Shown here: positions 4,043 to 14,284 of the stretch, one piece after another
Layout: each line of letters starts with the position of its first letter
How positions within the stretch are numbered: the stretch's first letter is position 1
Source of the DNA: Bacteroidales bacterium
Lineage (GTDB): Bacteria; Bacteroidota; Bacteroidia; Bacteroidales; UBA10428
Direction of reading: 5' to 3'
Assembly: GCA_016928305.1 (NCBI GenBank)
Contig: JAFGKY010000053.1
Coordinates: 1-64,000, forward strand
DNA: 64,000 nt
Notes under the pieces: generated by a model
What the model saw: only the letters and a program-made list of their open reading frames with translations
What the model was told of the DNA's origin: nothing
Databases searched by the model: none
Made by a program: the position numbers and the translations under genes

Positions 4043-5692
4043 ATGGTTAAAACGACATTATATGCGGTAGTGATTATGTTATTCCAGTATTGCAACGTTT
4101 ATTCCCAGCATGCAAAAAAAATTCCTTCCGAAAAGCCCAGGCTTATCGTTGGCATCATAGTCAGCCAAATGCGGTACGACTATGTATTCCGATTCTGGGA
4201 TAAATTGAGTGATAACGGGATCAAACTGCTGATTGACAGAGGAACTTTTTGTAAAAACACCAGTTTCAATTACCTGTATTCACAGGATGGTGTTGGACAT
4301 GCAAGCATTGTCACCGGTACAACACCTTCTAATCATGGGATTATTGCACAGCAGTGGTACCTGAACCTGCAGGATAAAATGGAACAGTATACGGAAGATC
4401 CTTCTCATAAGGCCGTAGGTGGAGATTATGATAATGGGCATCATTCACCGCGCAACCTTATGTGTACAACGTTTCCAGATGAATTAAGACTCTCAAATGA
4501 TTTCCGGTCGAAGGTTTTTTCGGTTGCGCTGGAGCCCGGACCTGCAATATTCTCGGCGGGTCATACCGGGAATTGTTCTTACTGGTTCGATCCCCGTACC
4601 GGAAGCTGGATAACCAGCACCTATTATACCGACAGTCTCGCTGCATGGGCAAAAGAATTCAATGATAAGAAGTTACCGGATATTTACCTGTCTCAGGAAT
4701 GGAATACCTTGTTTCCAATCGGACAATACACCGAAAGTCTTCCGGATAATAATAAGTATGAAACCGGATATGACGGAAGGATCACATTTCCTTACCCGCT
4801 GACGGAGATCTCCGGCAGCCGGAAAAACCAGAAGAATTACACCATCCTCATGAAAACGCCCTATGGCAATTTGCTTACCAAGGATTTTGTGTCGTCGTTG
4901 GTAATTGGAGAAGAACTTGGGAAAGATGATTATACGGATGTATTAATGGTGTCTTTTACCGCAAATGAAAGCATCGGAATCCTGTTCGGCCCCAATTCCA
5001 TTGAAGTGGAAGATGCTCTGATAAGGCTGGACCTTGAGCTCGCGCATTTCTTTCAGTTTCTGGATTCCCATGTGGGCAAGGAGAATATGCTGATCTTCCT
5101 GACCTCCGGCAGTGGCGTAGCACAGGTACCATCCTATCTGGTGGATTCAAAAATACCTGCCGGTTACTTTAATCATCTGGGGGCTATTGCATTGTTAAAG
5201 AGTGCGTTGAATAATACTTACGGAAGGGGCAACTGGGTGAAAGCGTATCAGTCACAGCAGATATTCCTGAACCATACACTGATTGAAGATTCCAAATTAT
5301 CGCTGAGGGATGTACAGGATTATACAGCCCAGTTTATGCTGCAGTTTGCCGGTGTAGCCAACACGGTGACCTCCTATACCCTGCAAAGCACTAATTTTAC
5401 AAGCGGCATCTTTCAGAAGATACAAAACAGCTATAACCAGAAACGTTCAGGCGATGTAATGATCAATCTGAAGGCAAACTGGGTTGAAAAAGGCAGTGGT
5501 TCAACCGATCATAACTCGTCCTATGCCTATGATTCAAAAATCCCGCTTATCTGGTACGGATGGAAGATCGGTCGCGGGACTATTACCCGTCCGGTTGACA
5601 TTACCGACATAGCACCAACGATTTCTACCTTTCTGGATATCAGCTATCCCAATGCGTGTACCGGCAGCCCGATACCTGAACTGGTGCAGTAA
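4043..5692 (+). CDS. PafA-like alkaline phosphatase homologue with a destroyed active site (pseudoenzyme)
   Basis: 549 residues with a signal peptide (cleavage after about VYSQ). It aligns along its whole length with the PafA/PhoX-independent alkaline phosphatases of Bacteroidota: KPRLIVGIIVSQMRYDY, GHASIVTGTTP, HSPRNLMCTT, FGPNSIEVEDALIRLD, and a C-terminal TRPVDITDIAPT. Compared from memory with Elizabethkingia PafA, nearly all catalytic residues are gone: metal Asp38 is Ser41, nucleophile Thr79 is Asp82, Asn100 is Gln103, Lys162 and Arg164 are Glu164 and Gly166, Asp305 and His309 are Glu309 and Ile313, Asp352-His353 are Gly356-Ser357. Only the last metal His (His490) remains. The frame is intact and the scaffold conserved, so a non-catalytic periplasmic role is more likely than recent decay. 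Confidence 0.85.
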   Translation: MVKTTLYAVVIMLFQYCNVYSQHAKKIPSEKPRLIVGIIVSQMRYDYVFRFWDKLSDNGIKLLIDRGTFCKNTSFNYLYSQDGVGHASIVTGTTPSNHGIIAQQWYLNLQDKMEQYTEDPSHKAVGGDYDNGHHSPRNLMCTTFPDELRLSNDFRSKVFSVALEPGPAIFSAGHTGNCSYWFDPRTGSWITSTYYTDSLAAWAKEFNDKKLPDIYLSQEWNTLFPIGQYTESLPDNNKYETGYDGRITFPYPLTEISGSRKNQKNYTILMKTPYGNLLTKDFVSSLVIGEELGKDDYTDVLMVSFTANESIGILFGPNSIEVEDALIRLDLELAHFFQFLDSHVGKENMLIFLTSGSGVAQVPSYLVDSKIPAGYFNHLGAIALLKSALNNTYGRGNWVKAYQSQQIFLNHTLIEDSKLSLRDVQDYTAQFMLQFAGVANTVTSYTLQSTNFTSGIFQKIQNSYNQKRSGDVMINLKANWVEKGSGSTDHNSSYAYDSKIPLIWYGWKIGRGTITRPVDITDIAPTISTFLDISYPNACTGSPIPELVQ

Positions 5693-5960: not shown

Positions 5961-6291
5961 CTTGGGCAAAACCGTTTAACCATTGAATTTGTATCGTCGT
6001 ATTTTTTAATTCGTGTTTTGTTGTTTCTATTCAGATATACGGGCGATTGCAGGGGTTGTTTGATTTATTGGATGAACGGATTGAATCTGTTGATCAGTGT
6101 TTTTTTTTCACAGGTAAACGATAAAGGGAATTTGCAGGACAAAAAAGGGGGGCTCATTTCTTAATTTTCAAATAACTCCGGGACTATTTTAAGTCGTGAT
6201 AACCATCATGGTTATTTAGTTTATAAAATGATATTTTTAGGCTGACAGAACGGCTAATTGTTAAATGAATCAATTTAAACTTTATACTATA

Positions 6292-8322
6292 ATGAAAAAA
6301 ATTTGTTTTTTACTGATACCTTTATGGGTTATTATGGCCTGTCAGCAGGGTGATAAAAAGAATAGGATGTTCATAAACGAAGCATTAAAGAAAGCAGCAG
6401 TCGATACATTGGTTGTCGGTAAGGGTGAAGCTTTTCGGGCGCGGATTGAGACGGGTATAGACCAGGTAGCCTTTTTCTGGACAAAAAATGACGGGAGCGA
6501 GGACGAATTCATTCAATTCTGCAGCGATCATTTTGTTGCTGATGAACGGCAGCGTGACACCTTGTTCCATAAGCTAAGCCGGAGCCTGGAGGTGCTGTTT
6601 GGCAATGCCAACAAAATGAGCCTTGAACTTCGTGAACCCCTGGATCTTGATCAGGGTCCCATTACCCCTGTCGATATGTTGTTTGGCAGTTATAATCCAG
6701 CCAGTCATTTTTCCGACGATCTCTTCAACAATAAGGTTTATTTTCATATTCTGCTGAATTTTCCGGCGTATTCACTGGATGAAAAGCTTGACAAGGGAAG
6801 AGCATGGGACCGGAAGGAATGGGCTTATGCAGCCCTCGGCAATAAAGTCGTTTCGAGGGAACCTGCTGTACTGTTGCAGCAATTGTCGAATGTTGCCACA
6901 AAAGCTGAGGCATACATTTCGGAATATAACATCCATATGGGAATACTGGTGAATGACAAAATGGAAAAGCTGTTCCCGTCCGATAAGGTGCTGATAAGTC
7001 ATTGGGGCCTCCGCGATGAGCTCAAATCGCATTACAATAGTGAAAATGGAATGGAAAAACAACGCATGATCTATGCCCTGATGAACCGCATCATCAATCA
7101 GGAGATTCCGAAAGAGGTCATCAACAGTAGCCGGTATACATGGAATCCGTTGAATAACAAGATATTTGAAGGCAACAATGAAATAACCGCAGAACGTGAA
7201 CCAGATAAACGGTATCAGTACGTGATCGATTATTACAGGATGTTTTTGCAGCAAGATGTGTATTTCCCGAAATATCCCACAGTTATTCACCGTGCATTTG
7301 AAATGGGGACACAAATGCCTAAGGCAACGGTGGAAGAGCTGTTTAAACAGGTATTGAGCTCACAGGAAGTCCGTGAAACGGCAAAACTTATTTCCAAAAG
7401 ACTGGAACGGAAGCTTGAACCTTTTGATATCTGGTACAATGGTTTCAGGTCCGTGAATACACTCCCTGAACAGGAGCTCGACCGGCTGACCGGATCAAAA
7501 TATCAGGATGCACTTGCACTAAAACGTGATCTGCCGGTTATCCTGGTGAAACTCGGATTTGAAAAAGAGAAAGCAGCCTTTCTGGCCTCTCACATCGTGG
7601 TGGACCCGGCAAGGGGATCCGGACATGCTGCAGGAGCTTTGATGCGCGGTGATGTTGCACACCTGCGAACACGCTTCACCAATAAAGGGATGAATTATAA
7701 GGGATACAACATAGCCATCCATGAATTCGGACACAATGTTGAACAGACTTTTTCCTTATATAATGTCGATTATTACCTCCTGAACGGTGTTCCTAATACC
7801 GCCTTCACGGAAGCGCTGGCATTCCTTTTCCAGGAAAAGGACTTGCAGTTGCTGGGCGTGGATAAACCATCGGAGAAAAGCGAATTGCTATCCGTATTGG
7901 ATATTCTCTGGAATTCATACGAGATCATGGGTGTGGCTCTCGTGGATGATGCTATGTGGACATGGTTGTATGAACATCCGGATGCCACTGCAGCTGAGCT
8001 CAGGCAGACCGTGACCGGCATCGCAAAGGATATCTGGAATACTTATTATGCTGATGTATTTGGTATAAAAGATCAGGCCATCCTGGGCATCTATTCCCAT
8101 ATTATAAGCTATCCGCTTTACCTCCATTCCTATCCGCTTGGACATATCATACATTTCCAGCTGAAGGATTATTTGAAAAACAAAGACTTCGGGAAAGAGA
8201 TAGAAAGGATTTATTCCCTTGGATCGATAACACCCGAAGCCTGGATGATGAATGCAGTCGGTAAGCCGATATCGGTTGATCCGTTGCTGCAAGCCGCCGG
8301 AGAAGCACTGAAATCCTATTGA
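6292..8322 (+). CDS. Gluzincin-type zinc metallopeptidase lipoprotein
   Basis: 676 residues from the ATG at 6292, chosen over an in-frame ATG at 6265 because it opens a lipoprotein signal (MKKICFLLIPLWVIMAC, Cys17). Residues 477-481 read HEFGH, the zinc-binding HExxH motif, and 26 residues on the sequence NTAFTEALAFLFQ offers Glu507 as third ligand, as in gluzincins related to the M3 oligopeptidases. The long helical N-terminal half (residues about 30-440) carries no motif I recognise. It would act anchored in the periplasm or at the cell surface. It stands alone between the orphan leader and the convergent fucosidase gene. Family assignment below clan level is open. Confidence 0.8.
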   Translation: MKKICFLLIPLWVIMACQQGDKKNRMFINEALKKAAVDTLVVGKGEAFRARIETGIDQVAFFWTKNDGSEDEFIQFCSDHFVADERQRDTLFHKLSRSLEVLFGNANKMSLELREPLDLDQGPITPVDMLFGSYNPASHFSDDLFNNKVYFHILLNFPAYSLDEKLDKGRAWDRKEWAYAALGNKVVSREPAVLLQQLSNVATKAEAYISEYNIHMGILVNDKMEKLFPSDKVLISHWGLRDELKSHYNSENGMEKQRMIYALMNRIINQEIPKEVINSSRYTWNPLNNKIFEGNNEITAEREPDKRYQYVIDYYRMFLQQDVYFPKYPTVIHRAFEMGTQMPKATVEELFKQVLSSQEVRETAKLISKRLERKLEPFDIWYNGFRSVNTLPEQELDRLTGSKYQDALALKRDLPVILVKLGFEKEKAAFLASHIVVDPARGSGHAAGALMRGDVAHLRTRFTNKGMNYKGYNIAIHEFGHNVEQTFSLYNVDYYLLNGVPNTAFTEALAFLFQEKDLQLLGVDKPSEKSELLSVLDILWNSYEIMGVALVDDAMWTWLYEHPDATAAELRQTVTGIAKDIWNTYYADVFGIKDQAILGIYSHIISYPLYLHSYPLGHIIHFQLKDYLKNKDFGKEIERIYSLGSITPEAWMMNAVGKPISVDPLLQAAGEALKSY

Positions 8323-8340: not shown

Positions 8341-10224
8341 TTAGCTCTTTATCAGCTTATGTATAAACACGGACGCATCATCCGAAATGCGGATCGTATA
8401 AAAGCCGGTCGATAGCGATGAAATATCAAAAGAAAAGGATTTTTCGCTGATGACATGTTTCATCACGGGACAGCCGTAGATGTCATATATGACCAGTTCA
8501 GATTTTGGTTTTCCGGTTTGAATGATGTTTAATATTCCATGCTCATTAGGATTTGGGAAAATACGTACGGTTGTCTGATCACGAAATTGTTGATCACCGG
8601 TTGTCTGGTTGGAAATTGTAATCCGTAGCCTTCCCCGGATATCCGATTCATCATTTGCGACTGCAGTTACTGTAATGGTTCCATCTTGTTTTGCCGTTAA
8701 CAAACCTTCTGCGTCAATGCAGGCAACATTTGTATCCGATACAGTCCAGCTTACCGTGTTATCAGTGGCATCCAACGGATAAGCGGTAGCTGACAGTTGC
8801 AGGGAACCCCCGTATGTGTCAATTGTTTTGGCACCGTTTTCTCCTGTTATAACAATATCTGTAACTTTAATGAACTCGGATGATGCTTCGGGGATTCCGG
8901 AAACATCAAGAACAAAAACCGTGTTCATTGGATCAGGAGCTGTATCCGGCAGGGATAACCGGATGTATCCGTTACTGTCGGCAAAACTTATTGATGTGGT
9001 TGTTTCGGTCAGGGTATATATTTTTTTTATGGAATTGACAAGGGATGGTATCTTGAGTATACCATTATCCGGCCATTCAAAGACATGCGCAAAGAGTTTT
9101 CCCGGCTTTTTTGTATAATAACCCCACACGGGTTCTGATGCAAACGGACTTCGTGTTGCTGCATAAATACTTTCACTGTTGACGGCCATCCATTCCCCAA
9201 TTTGATTTAATACCTTCACGGACTGTTCGGGTACAGTGCCATCGCCTTTTGGACCTATATTCAGCAGATAATTCCCGTCTCTTGACACGACTTTAACCAT
9301 TTCGCGAATCAGGGTCGCCGGAGTTTTATAGTTTTGATCCCATATTTTATAGCCCCATGAGTTATTCATGGTCTGACAGGTCTCCCATGGCCTGTTAAGG
9401 GGTGTATCGGGTACTTCCTTCTCGGGGCAATCAAAATCGCCCAAACTGAAACTTCTGCAGACGCGTTCGTTGATAATGACGGCCGTATCCAGACTTCTAA
9501 GGTAATTATACAGATCTTCACCGTCTGATTTTGTCCACCAGGATGAAAGGGTGGGGGATCCTGCATTGTAAGTCCAGTCTCCATCAAACCACATTACAGC
9601 CGGGTGATACCGGGTAATTAATTCATTCAGCTGCACTTTCATGTCAGCAATATAATCTGTTCTGGCACTTTCGGAAGCCATATTGGAATAATAGGTATGA
9701 CGGTTTATTTCCTGTGAAGAGTGATTCCAGTCGAGAATCGAGTAATACAGGCAGAATTTTATGTCCTGCGCTTCACACGAGTCTTTCAGCTCCTGCAGAA
9801 TATCTCTTGTGCCGAATGCGGTATAATCGGGCAGATCATACATTGTTGTTCCGGTGATATCCTTAAAGCTCTGGACATCCGTTTCCCACATACAAAAGCC
9901 TTCATGATGTTTGGCCGTGATCACCAGGTATTTCATACCCGCATTCTTAGCCAGCCGTGCAATGGTGCCGGCATTAAAATCCGATGGATTAAAATTTGCT
10001 GATACCTGGGTCTGATACGCTGATTTGGTCCAGTTCTCCTCACTGAATGCCCATTCACCATGTCCAAGGTATGAGTAAGATCCGAAATGGATGAACATCC
10101 CAAACCGGGCTTCATACCACCATTCCATCCTGGGCGGGATGGTATATTGAGCTTTCGATGCATGGATTGAAATCTGAATCATGAGAATTATCAGTGCGTA
10201 TAACCGGTACGAATGTTCTTTCAT
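8341..10224 (-). CDS. Secreted alpha-L-fucosidase (GH29) with Big2 and T9SS sorting domains
   Basis: 627 residues. Signal peptide 1-26; GH29 catalytic domain about 30-370 with FGMFIHFGSYSY, TAKHHEGFCMW and the nucleophile Asp214 in VMWFDGDW; a small beta domain to about 445; a Big2-like immunoglobulin domain about 450-535 (ends TITVTAVANDESDIRG); and a type-A T9SS sorting domain from VRIFPNPNEHG to the end. It should be exported through T9SS and release terminal alpha-L-fucose from glycans at or outside the cell surface. The gene is convergent with the metallopeptidase (18-base gap), and no PUL genes surround it. Confidence 0.92.
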   Translation of the reverse strand: MKEHSYRLYALIILMIQISIHASKAQYTIPPRMEWWYEARFGMFIHFGSYSYLGHGEWAFSEENWTKSAYQTQVSANFNPSDFNAGTIARLAKNAGMKYLVITAKHHEGFCMWETDVQSFKDITGTTMYDLPDYTAFGTRDILQELKDSCEAQDIKFCLYYSILDWNHSSQEINRHTYYSNMASESARTDYIADMKVQLNELITRYHPAVMWFDGDWTYNAGSPTLSSWWTKSDGEDLYNYLRSLDTAVIINERVCRSFSLGDFDCPEKEVPDTPLNRPWETCQTMNNSWGYKIWDQNYKTPATLIREMVKVVSRDGNYLLNIGPKGDGTVPEQSVKVLNQIGEWMAVNSESIYAATRSPFASEPVWGYYTKKPGKLFAHVFEWPDNGILKIPSLVNSIKKIYTLTETTTSISFADSNGYIRLSLPDTAPDPMNTVFVLDVSGIPEASSEFIKVTDIVITGENGAKTIDTYGGSLQLSATAYPLDATDNTVSWTVSDTNVACIDAEGLLTAKQDGTITVTAVANDESDIRGRLRITISNQTTGDQQFRDQTTVRIFPNPNEHGILNIIQTGKPKSELVIYDIYGCPVMKHVISEKSFSFDISSLSTGFYTIRISDDASVFIHKLIKS

Positions 10225-11851: not shown

Positions 11852-14284
11852 TTAAAACAACCTTGCCTGCTTTATGTAAATCTTTCGGATACCGTTTACT
11901 ATATCCACTTTGAATTCAATATCTATCGGATTGCATTCAAAGAATAACCTGCAGTAATGATAATGTACGGCCATGCAATAGTCCTTTAAAACTTTTAATT
12001 CATCAGCCGTCATCACTGTTTTTCCCTCCATTCCGGGTACATTTGAATGATTTATGTATTCAAAAATATCTTCATTGGAATAGGTATAGTAAATGATCTG
12101 GTCGGGGAAGTAGTTTCCATCGGGACTTACAACACTTATTTCGTCAACCTGCACGTTTATGGTGATGGCTGCATTATAAGGATTATACAGGTTTTTGGTA
12201 ACGACCACGCCATTGGCAGCCTCAGACGGGAAAGAACGATGAACCAGGATACCCATGGCAACGGTTTTGTGATCGATTTTAAAATAATCCCTTTCTTCAA
12301 AGGCACCGAAATTCCATAAACTGGCCCATACTCTTTTAATGGCCCTGTCAATCAGACGGTCAGGATCGGTCAATGTGCCTGTATATGAATCATACAAACC
12401 GGCGCCATTAAAGCCTTCGATGTCCTCGGCATTGGTTGATGAGCGGAAACGTATGTTGGTAAAACCTGTGATTGTTGACACCCGGTCCTTTACCCGTCTG
12501 AGTAAACTTGTGTCAAGCGGACAGTTCTTAATGGAATCCTGCAATACCCTTAACTGTTTCTGACGCCATGCAACATCGGTTTGAAATAACGTATCTTCTA
12601 ACATACCATGAATAAAATCATCCAGACCATATTCCTTTATATGCCGGTAATAATAATAAAACGGTATGGCAAAATAACCTTCAGGCACGGGCAGTGGCCC
12701 GTAACCGACAACGTTTACCTTTGTCAGTTCTGCGAAATTGGCAGCTTTCCCGCCGATCAGTGAAACCGAATTCAGATCAGCGCCGGCCAGATCCACCAGC
12801 CCTGATGTAACAGTGTCCAGGTCAAGAACATGTGGTGTCTGGGGTTCTTTTTGTGCCCAGTAATTCTGTGCTTCCTGAAGCGTGGCTTCACGGATGTAAA
12901 ACGAATCAAGTGTGACTTCTAAATATACCAGTTTATTCAGCAGGTTATTCAGTTTTGGATTTGTCCACCCGTCGCGAAGCGCCATATTGGGTGTTCCGCG
13001 GTTATGACTTAACACATTAATATGACTTAGCGGTGTTTGAAATTCAGTTGTAATTATTCCTGCAACAACTGCAATGTCAATGGGTATGCCGTTTAATAGT
13101 ACAATGTCATGCCTCCCCAGGTATGTACCGGGCAATTCGGAAACCGTAACTTTTCTCAGGTAACCGTAATTTGCCTCCGGATTCAGTGGTTGGTAATTCT
13201 GACCCTGGTATAATTCATCGGATGAGATTACAGCGACATCGGGACATGCTGCCCAGCCTGTTGAATTAGCATAAAAACGTAACCTGTTCCCGATAAAAGA
13301 AGTCTCCTTTACTTTATCATATACTGCTTTTATATCATTGCAATCGAGTTCATCGCCTGTAAAAAAGTCAAGCGTATAAATATCCGATGAGATAAAATGA
13401 TTCACTGAGGCCAGGATATAGATGCGGTTTTCATTCTTCGTGTATTGTTCGAGGTTGAACATCGCATGTCCTTTGCTGTAGCCCAGCACCTGGGCACAAA
13501 AATCATAATGGATGAAATATTTGTTGGAATTGGAATAATATATTTTACCATCAGGGATAGAATAGGTTATTTTGATCGATTTCACTTCACCAAATGTGGG
13601 ATTTAAAGGCAGGCCCTGCAGCATGGTAAAGGCTTCGGGCCGGATGATTTTATCCAGGTAGTCTATATCAGCATAGGACAACTTTAAAATTTCGTATGCC
13701 TCATCTGCATCCTGATAGACATATTGCTGGGTATAATAGCCGCTTTTGTTTATTATCAGGGTATCCGATTCTGCAGAAGTACTTTTTTCATGATTATCAG
13801 CCCGGACATAGCACGATGATTTTTCTTTGCTGATATTTACACCATTATAACCTTTGACGATTTTGTATGAATGACTGTTTTCTTCACATGCGACTGTCAG
13901 AAGGTATATGCCGTTGGGAACATAAGCCAGACTTATTTCACCACTTCCCGCAAGCGATGTGCGGGACAGGCCGGTTTCCTGACCCAGTATGGTAATAATC
14001 CGTATATCTATTTTTTTGTCAGAATGCCAGTAAATCCTGTTATCAGCAGACGCAATGCCGTAAACATCATGACCCGATGCATCATCGATACCGGTTATGA
14101 AACTGAAACATCCCGTTTCGTCGGTGGTCATCTTTATATCGGTTCCCTGTATGCTGACCCCGGCTTCCGGTATTGGATTTTTTGTGTACGTATCAATTAC
14201 CTTGCCTGAATATATTCTCTGCCCTTCAGCCAATGCAGGAATTATCAGGATGATTACCAGTATGGAAAGAAAAATCTTTTTCAC
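11852..14284 (-). CDS. Exported PEP-synthase/dikinase-like protein: CarboxypepD_reg, phosphohistidine domain, ATP-grasp domain
   Basis: 810 residues starting at GTG 14284, whose GTGA overlaps the stop of the gene before it. Signal peptide 1-22; a carboxypeptidase-regulatory-like domain about 23-80; a segment like a T9SS sorting domain but internal (about 92-145, ILGQE...PNGIYLLTV...YKIVKG); an unassigned region to about 380; a swivelling phosphohistidine-type domain (about 385-465) with candidate His421 in TEFQTPLSHINVLSHNRGTP; and a PPDK/PEP-synthase ATP-grasp domain (about 505-810) with IGGKAANFAEL and RSSTNAED at 614-621. The His domain precedes the ATP-grasp domain, the reverse of PEP synthase and the same as glucan water dikinase. 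The signal peptide implies function outside the cytosol, where ATP supply is unclear. Confidence 0.8.
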   Translation of the reverse strand: MKKIFLSILVIILIIPALAEGQRIYSGKVIDTYTKNPIPEAGVSIQGTDIKMTTDETGCFSFITGIDDASGHDVYGIASADNRIYWHSDKKIDIRIITILGQETGLSRTSLAGSGEISLAYVPNGIYLLTVACEENSHSYKIVKGYNGVNISKEKSSCYVRADNHEKSTSAESDTLIINKSGYYTQQYVYQDADEAYEILKLSYADIDYLDKIIRPEAFTMLQGLPLNPTFGEVKSIKITYSIPDGKIYYSNSNKYFIHYDFCAQVLGYSKGHAMFNLEQYTKNENRIYILASVNHFISSDIYTLDFFTGDELDCNDIKAVYDKVKETSFIGNRLRFYANSTGWAACPDVAVISSDELYQGQNYQPLNPEANYGYLRKVTVSELPGTYLGRHDIVLLNGIPIDIAVVAGIITTEFQTPLSHINVLSHNRGTPNMALRDGWTNPKLNNLLNKLVYLEVTLDSFYIREATLQEAQNYWAQKEPQTPHVLDLDTVTSGLVDLAGADLNSVSLIGGKAANFAELTKVNVVGYGPLPVPEGYFAIPFYYYYRHIKEYGLDDFIHGMLEDTLFQTDVAWRQKQLRVLQDSIKNCPLDTSLLRRVKDRVSTITGFTNIRFRSSTNAEDIEGFNGAGLYDSYTGTLTDPDRLIDRAIKRVWASLWNFGAFEERDYFKIDHKTVAMGILVHRSFPSEAANGVVVTKNLYNPYNAAITINVQVDEISVVSPDGNYFPDQIIYYTYSNEDIFEYINHSNVPGMEGKTVMTADELKVLKDYCMAVHYHYCRLFFECNPIDIEFKVDIVNGIRKIYIKQARLF

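Follow-up and report, generated by a model that had tools for sequence, protein, structure and literature searches.

The gene at positions 4043 to 5692 of the window (by which we mean the whole 64,000-nucleotide stretch of Bacteroidales DNA analyzed here) quite probably encodes a secreted, periplasmic pseudophosphatase that descends from PafA, has lost alkaline phosphatase chemistry, and is kept for a non-catalytic job. Judged by its residues, the product is a pseudoenzyme, that is, a protein homologous to an enzyme but without the residues essential for that enzyme's chemistry, and it is predicted to have no catalytic activity. The features on which the argument draws are these:

4043..5692, + strand: putative PafA-fold pseudophosphatase gene, 549 amino acids, ATG start, open frame
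4043..4105, + strand: signal peptide, residues 1 to about 21, recognized by eye, with cleavage near VYS-Q and no lipobox by eye
4163..4165, + strand: codon 41, Ser for PafA Asp38 (metal ligand), from alignment
4286..4288, + strand: codon 82, Asp for the nucleophile Thr79, from alignment
4349..4351, + strand: codon 103, Gln for Asn100, from alignment
4532..4540, + strand: codons 164-166, Glu-Pro-Gly for Lys162-Asp163-Arg164, from alignment
4967..4981, + strand: codons 309-313, with Glu309 and Ile313 for Asp305 and His309 (metal ligands), from alignment
5108..5113, + strand: codons 356-357, Gly-Ser for Asp352-His353 (metal ligands), from alignment
5162..5353, + strand: subdomain 374-437, newly conserved by column entropy (F376, L384, L385, Y393, W398, L413, I414, F431, G437)
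5510..5512, + strand: codon 490, His, the sole kept catalytic position (PafA His486), from alignment

Kinship with PafA runs the length of the protein, as the sequence-only reading of this DNA had proposed. Elizabethkingia PafA is 37-38% identical to it from end to end, phmmer matches residues 29-548 to residues 15-533 of the PafA chain in 5TJ3/5TOO at an E value of about 1e-113, and Pfam PF01663 is also matched. The AlphaFold model (pLDDT 87.3) superposes on 5TJ3 with a Z score of 58.4 and an rmsd of 2.3 Å over 513 residues, which supports placement of the predicted structure in PafA at the level of the fold. A model of L260, from a divergent subgroup, still reaches Z 48.3 to 5TJ3 at 30% identity, and PafA and SPAP head the list of PDB structures for both models. 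The score against the NCBIfam model for alkaline phosphatase PafA, NF042991, is 592.6 bits, under the equivalog cut-off of 650. The frame runs uninterrupted through 549 codons from ATG to stop, again as first read. From the signal peptide, which coincides with a helix at residues 2-22 of the model, a periplasmic location like that of PafA would be expected; among 168 degenerate relatives, just 6 showed a lipobox-like motif.

What sets the protein apart is its active site. In PafA we take T79 to be the nucleophile, N100, K162, and R164 to be further active-site residues, and D38, D305, H309, D352, H353, and H486 to be metal ligands; the title of 5TOO names T79, N100, K162, and R164. Alignment pairs these ten positions, D38 T79 N100 K162 R164 D305 H309 D352 H353 H486, with S41 D82 Q103 E164 G166 E309 I313 G356 S357 H490 of the window protein, so that the PafA string DTNKRDHDHH reads SDQEGEIGSH and one of ten catalytic or metal-binding residues is kept. 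All ten positions had been numbered correctly before any alignment was made, and the claims that the nucleophile is replaced and that only His490 is left both stand. The other active-site residues had been described as two, when there are three (N100, K162, R164), and the count of six changed metal ligands among seven is right only if the nucleophilic Thr is included; otherwise it is five of six. Even the remaining histidine is not a constant of the lineage: its equivalent is gone in six of eight full-length copies from the same genus, and the same six keep D352-H353.

The window gene is not the cell's only copy, since an intact PafA with all ten residues lies elsewhere in the same genome (G000:C144:46899-48509) and scores 663.7 bits against NF042991, above the cut-off. 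Among near genomes, 45 of 60 had a match, the window's own included. One of these, from the same genus (G002), carries a copy 84% identical to the window protein with the string SDKEGENGSH, and an accident of one genome or an assembly error is ruled out by this nearly identical second case. The relatives of the window family that we fetched have open frames with no stops, and their strings vary between lineages: one copy of the same genus reads SQRDAESDHG, one of a sister genus SISDAENEHF. The sequence-only reading had suggested looking for clusters of homologues with the same substitutions; across the family no one set of replacements is shared. A scan of named genomes returned at least 568 relatives, classical PafAs included; the best 80 of these include Labilibaculum and Marinifilum isolates, with 70 keeping six or fewer of the ten residues and 10 keeping all ten. 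His353 or His486 is kept in about half of these best 80 rows. No phage or virus copy appeared when viral_contigs was searched with the window protein, a search that would reach close relatives only. One subgroup (L104, L118, L122, L126, L130, L149, L165, and relatives) has the string E-(S/A)-D-(K/R/N)-x-D-H-(A/S/G)-H-H, which keeps the metal site of D305, H309, and H486 and sometimes has Ser at the nucleophile position; by sequence, its members could retain binding of a single metal.

Selection on the gene was gauged from close pairs. Pairwise NG86 estimates were tried for 17 close pairs, five of which had saturated dS and gave no value; in the 12 computable pairs dN/dS was 0.027-0.077, the three pairs with dS < 0.2 giving 0.027, 0.074, and 0.077. 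Values this low are usual for a gene held under tight constraint by purifying selection. Homologues that are mostly frameshifted would point the other way, yet single open frames were found in all 100 full-length loci of the census described below. Two loci with one stop (G312 and G295:C1) have it at the C-terminal end, leaving open frames of 529 and 547 amino acids. The earlier proposal that the gene is selected for a non-catalytic role is well supported by the open frames, the dN/dS values, the presence of degenerate copies in 91 of 149 genomes, and a newly conserved zone.

To describe the family across Bacteroidales, a profile of 46 family members (A2) was compared with 149 genomes of the order, a set chosen at 95% completeness or more with the window's own genome included in the count. 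Matches occurred in 105 of the 149. The 100 full-length loci, a count that leaves out two further pieces of G029 at contig ends, comprise 91 degenerate copies keeping six or fewer of ten residues, each in a different genome; three intact copies with the family signature (G275, G277, and G353); and six classical PafAs, one of which keeps nine residues. The profile picked up no full-length PafA-like gene in 54 of 149 genomes (10 with weak partial matches, 44 with none). Degenerate and classical copies stand together in five genomes (G000, G024, G276, G295, and G330), and for the other 86 of the 91 genomes that carry a degenerate gene, the profile turned up no classical PafA beside it. Outside the order, we typed all but two very weak matches in 198 genomes drawn from the phylum. 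Each of the 88 typed loci keeps every catalytic residue that it covers, down to 27% identity: 29 of 29 in a first set, then 56 of 59 with ten of ten and three pieces cut short by contig ends or the fetched stretch, for a total of 85 full-length loci with ten of ten. Degeneration was not found among these 88, and the complete seven-residue family signature is absent from all of the 59. The degenerate family is order-wide and, among the genomes typed, confined to the order.

Among 217 homologues at <95% identity, 169 are degenerate (0-6 of ten residues), 44 are classical (9-10), and four are intact with the signature; none keeps seven or eight. In one alignment 43 rows keep nine or ten residues, 42 of these all ten. 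Homology alone would miscount 91 of 100 full-length PafA-like loci of the order as phosphatases, an error that the strict NCBIfam cut-off avoids nearly always: only one of the 46 A2 members reaches E 3e-195, which is about the NF042991 cut-off.

Where constraint was lost and where it was gained can both be read from column entropy. Fifteen columns are invariant among intact rows but no longer kept in the family; catalytic positions account for nine of them, five more (T77, H83, D163, A302, F348) lie four or fewer residues from one, and S230 is the exception. His353 is missing from this list because many degenerate rows keep it. Across the aligned sequences, loss thus appears concentrated at the catalytic site more than chance would give. 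When columns are ranked by entropy within the family, R164 reaches the 99th percentile, H309 the 90th, H486 the 89th, T79 the 86th, and D305 the 82nd, with N100, K162, D352, and H353 at 60-62; nine of ten catalytic columns are at or above 60, and D38 is at the 37th. Some catalytic columns are thus still partly restrained, which counts against free drift of the whole site.

Constraint has been gained in one place. Of the 25 columns that gained most in conservation, 20 lie in residues 374-435, which make up 62 of 537 columns (Fisher 2.9e-16), and 21 fall within one 62-residue segment. Control splits never gave a segment of that size more than 12 (44 splits of classical PafA) or 10 (25 splits of the degenerate set). 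The share in the zone is 19 when rows of the SecA-linked type are left out, 17 in those 25 rows alone, and 21 at 50% identity. Mean entropy changed by -0.68 in 374-437 versus +0.58 elsewhere (Mann-Whitney p 1e-19). The model has a helix at 378-393, strands at 399-403 and 406-409, and helices at 411-416 and 421-432. The residues newly fixed across the family are A, G, Y, L, F, W, and I only; the polar or acidic newly conserved columns, Q434, Q425, E415, D423, and D295, make up no catalytic-type set. At positions 384, 391, 421, 431, and 435, classical PafA often has a charged or amide residue where the degenerate family has a hydrophobic one, the share of charged or amide residues falling from 50% to 0% of rows at 384, from 68% to 13% at 391, from 27% to 0% at 431, and from 30% to 1% at 435. 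For this reason we read 374-437 as a new binding face and infer a surface for another envelope protein; the conservation could also serve folding or homodimerization rather than a partner. W398 is present in 10 of 44 classical PafAs, and a single one of these 44 carries F-L-W-L complete, so by these sequences part of the family signature is ancestral.

The order of events is suggested by members that have the new signature and the old active site. A careful tree of 48 chosen rows, built with catalytic columns removed and 200 bootstrap trees, puts 12 classical PafA rows on one side of a branch with support of 100/99, recovered in 100% of bootstrap trees, and the window protein falls outside this classical clade. 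Four intact proteins (L105, L203, L204, L211) lie on the family side with all ten catalytic and all seven signature residues. Because intact members share it, the signature is probably older than the loss of catalysis. As to how often catalysis was lost, both trees scatter the intact members. In a quick free tree the four fall in two places, and parsimony without regain would need six losses, a figure on which we do not rely since weak branches were probably left uncollapsed. The degenerate rows of the 48-row tree are on one side of a branch in 0 of 200 bootstrap trees, a bootstrap that had not converged, and the AU test accepts a single degenerate clade (p 0.79; the likelihood of the held tree is 30.7 higher than that of the free tree). 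A single loss is compatible with that test, and we claim no more than one.

Gene neighborhoods are consistent with this history. A frequent arrangement runs transketolase, YchF, CrcB or an M14 peptidase carrying a T9SS tail, the degenerate gene, an S8 protease, GGGPS, an AcpT-like PPTase, GldD, GldE, SSB, MutY, and RNase G. The intact gene of G353 adjoins the S8 protease, GGGPS, PPTase, GldD, GldE, and SSB, and that of G277 adjoins CrcB and the M14 peptidase, as degenerate members do; six classical PafAs (L144, L147, L150, L152, L153, L161) sit at the YchF-CrcB locus. With neighbors shared in this way, the gene looks like the form that an old pafA locus has taken in this order, one whose catalytic site was lost after the subdomain signature was in place. 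None of the neighbors examined names a pathway. In 18 of 56 census loci fetched with flanks (L229-L284), SecA lies beside the gene, and in 17 of the 56 secA is downstream on the same strand after a gap of about 15-157 bases (to the start of the tblastn match), an arrangement in which divergent members (L254-L284, the subgroup modelled on L260) might possibly be cotranscribed with secA.

The window gene's own context is different. The window holds an MFS transporter that may be a sugar importer (1001-2326), and, at 6265-8322 (+), a 685-residue secreted-looking protein with no Pfam match at E 0.001 and, by eye, a zinc-peptidase-like HEFGH motif; this protein presumably resembles those of the dipeptidyl-peptidase III type. 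An alpha-L-fucosidase with Big_2 and a T9SS sorting tail lies at 8341-10224 (-). The protein encoded at 11852-14284 (-), 810 residues long, has an N terminus resembling a signal peptide, a weak match to a carboxypeptidase-regulatory-like domain, and an ATP-binding domain of the PPDK_N type (PF01326, E 2e-27), apparently an exported nucleotide-binding domain.

The common neighbors invite the idea of an accessory of type IX secretion or gliding, as GldD is near 38, GldE near 36, and a T9SS-tailed M14 peptidase near 30 of the 80 named loci (the best 80 of at least 568, many on short contigs). Co-occurrence does not follow SprA or GldD, however. Four census genomes (G272, G310, G316, G350) have the degenerate gene without SprA, 51 of the 142 genomes (among 149) with SprA lack a full-length PafA-like gene, the degenerate gene persists in 13 of the 17 genomes where GldD gave no match, and another subgroup has SecA as its neighbor instead. 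We do not regard such a role as supported and consider it very unlikely. What is left is to read the protein as a putative scaffold or adaptor in the periplasm. The degenerate protein might instead be a regulatory subunit that joins an intact PafA made by the same cell. This would suit the window's genome, which has both, and might apply to all five genomes that carry the two copies, but the 86 in which no classical PafA was found largely contradict it as a general role and leave it a very slim chance. Decay into a pseudogene, suggested by nine missing catalytic residues, deserves next to no credence given 100 open full-length census loci, dN/dS below 0.08, and a newly conserved segment.

Two further readings keep a use for the old cleft. 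The emptied site could still bind phosphate esters or a lipid head group, as a sensor like YejM (also called PbgA or LapC), which we think unlikely. The overall fold is kept, and two papers (PMC7576196, PMC13333357) offer a precedent in the periplasmic, hydrolase-fold domain of YejM that regulates envelope lipids; on the other hand, few positions of the protein vary as much as R164, H309, H486, and T79, while K162 and N100 are about average, unlike a conserved phosphate pocket, and YejM itself is reported in PMC7576196 to bind metal and have phosphatase activity. That the fold now houses a new active site, making the protein a different sort of enzyme, seems a shade less plausible again. In its favor, one metal site and a Ser in place of the nucleophile are seen in subgroups like E-S-D-K-x-D-H-A-H-H; but the family as a whole has fixed no new residue of a catalytic type, and the ligands lost differ between subgroups, which means that one new site derived from the old could not serve them all.

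Part of our reading, a pseudophosphatase kept for a non-catalytic job, is that the ancestor was probably still catalytically active when the binding job of 374-437 arose, catalysis being let go once that job was in place. A fuller account can be offered tentatively, at something short of an even chance. In such a history, partner binding arose in an active PafA, the catalytic site then drifted, perhaps several times independently, and the protein became a single secreted scaffold used in most Bacteroidales and joined to a conserved envelope complex, encoded in one branch immediately upstream of secA. PafA surveys leave out homologues that lack the catalytic residues, and this would be why the protein has escaped notice.

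Pseudoenzymes are known as a kind; what is new here is one that is order-wide, has intact members with the signature, and has a measurable relocation of constraint. Active PafA, intact proteins with the new subdomain, and eroded ones form a natural series in which the point of passage from enzyme to pseudoenzyme can be studied, and the family brings to light a secreted protein that no one has studied in a large order of bacteria. The turnover of organic phosphorus is one process for which PafA serves as a marker (PMC8812569, PMC8115612); the latter paper (ISME J 2020) places it in 78.7% of surveyed genomes of the phylum. PMC8812569 (PNAS 2022) kept only PafA sequences with key residues before building a tree (423 isolate ORFs, bank n = 468), a filter through which the degenerate family would have dropped out. 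We found no description of an inactive PafA family in the open-licence PMC literature.

The known system closest to the window protein is PafA itself (5TJ3, NF042991), which it matches in whole-length fold, size, and secretion; it differs in the replacement of nine of ten catalytic residues, a score below the NF042991 cut-off, a position across the 100/99 branch, and conservation of 374-437 in the degenerate family. The next closest solved fold to the model is SPAP/PhoK of Sphingomonas (3Q3Q, 5XWI; Z 41.4), an alkaline phosphatase by its PDB title and 21% identical to the window protein. YejM is likewise a periplasmic hydrolase-fold protein, with a regulatory role in the envelope according to PMC7576196 and PMC13333357; it differs in being membrane-anchored and enterobacterial and is reported in PMC7576196 to keep a metal site. 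The likeness is offered as an analogy of kind only.
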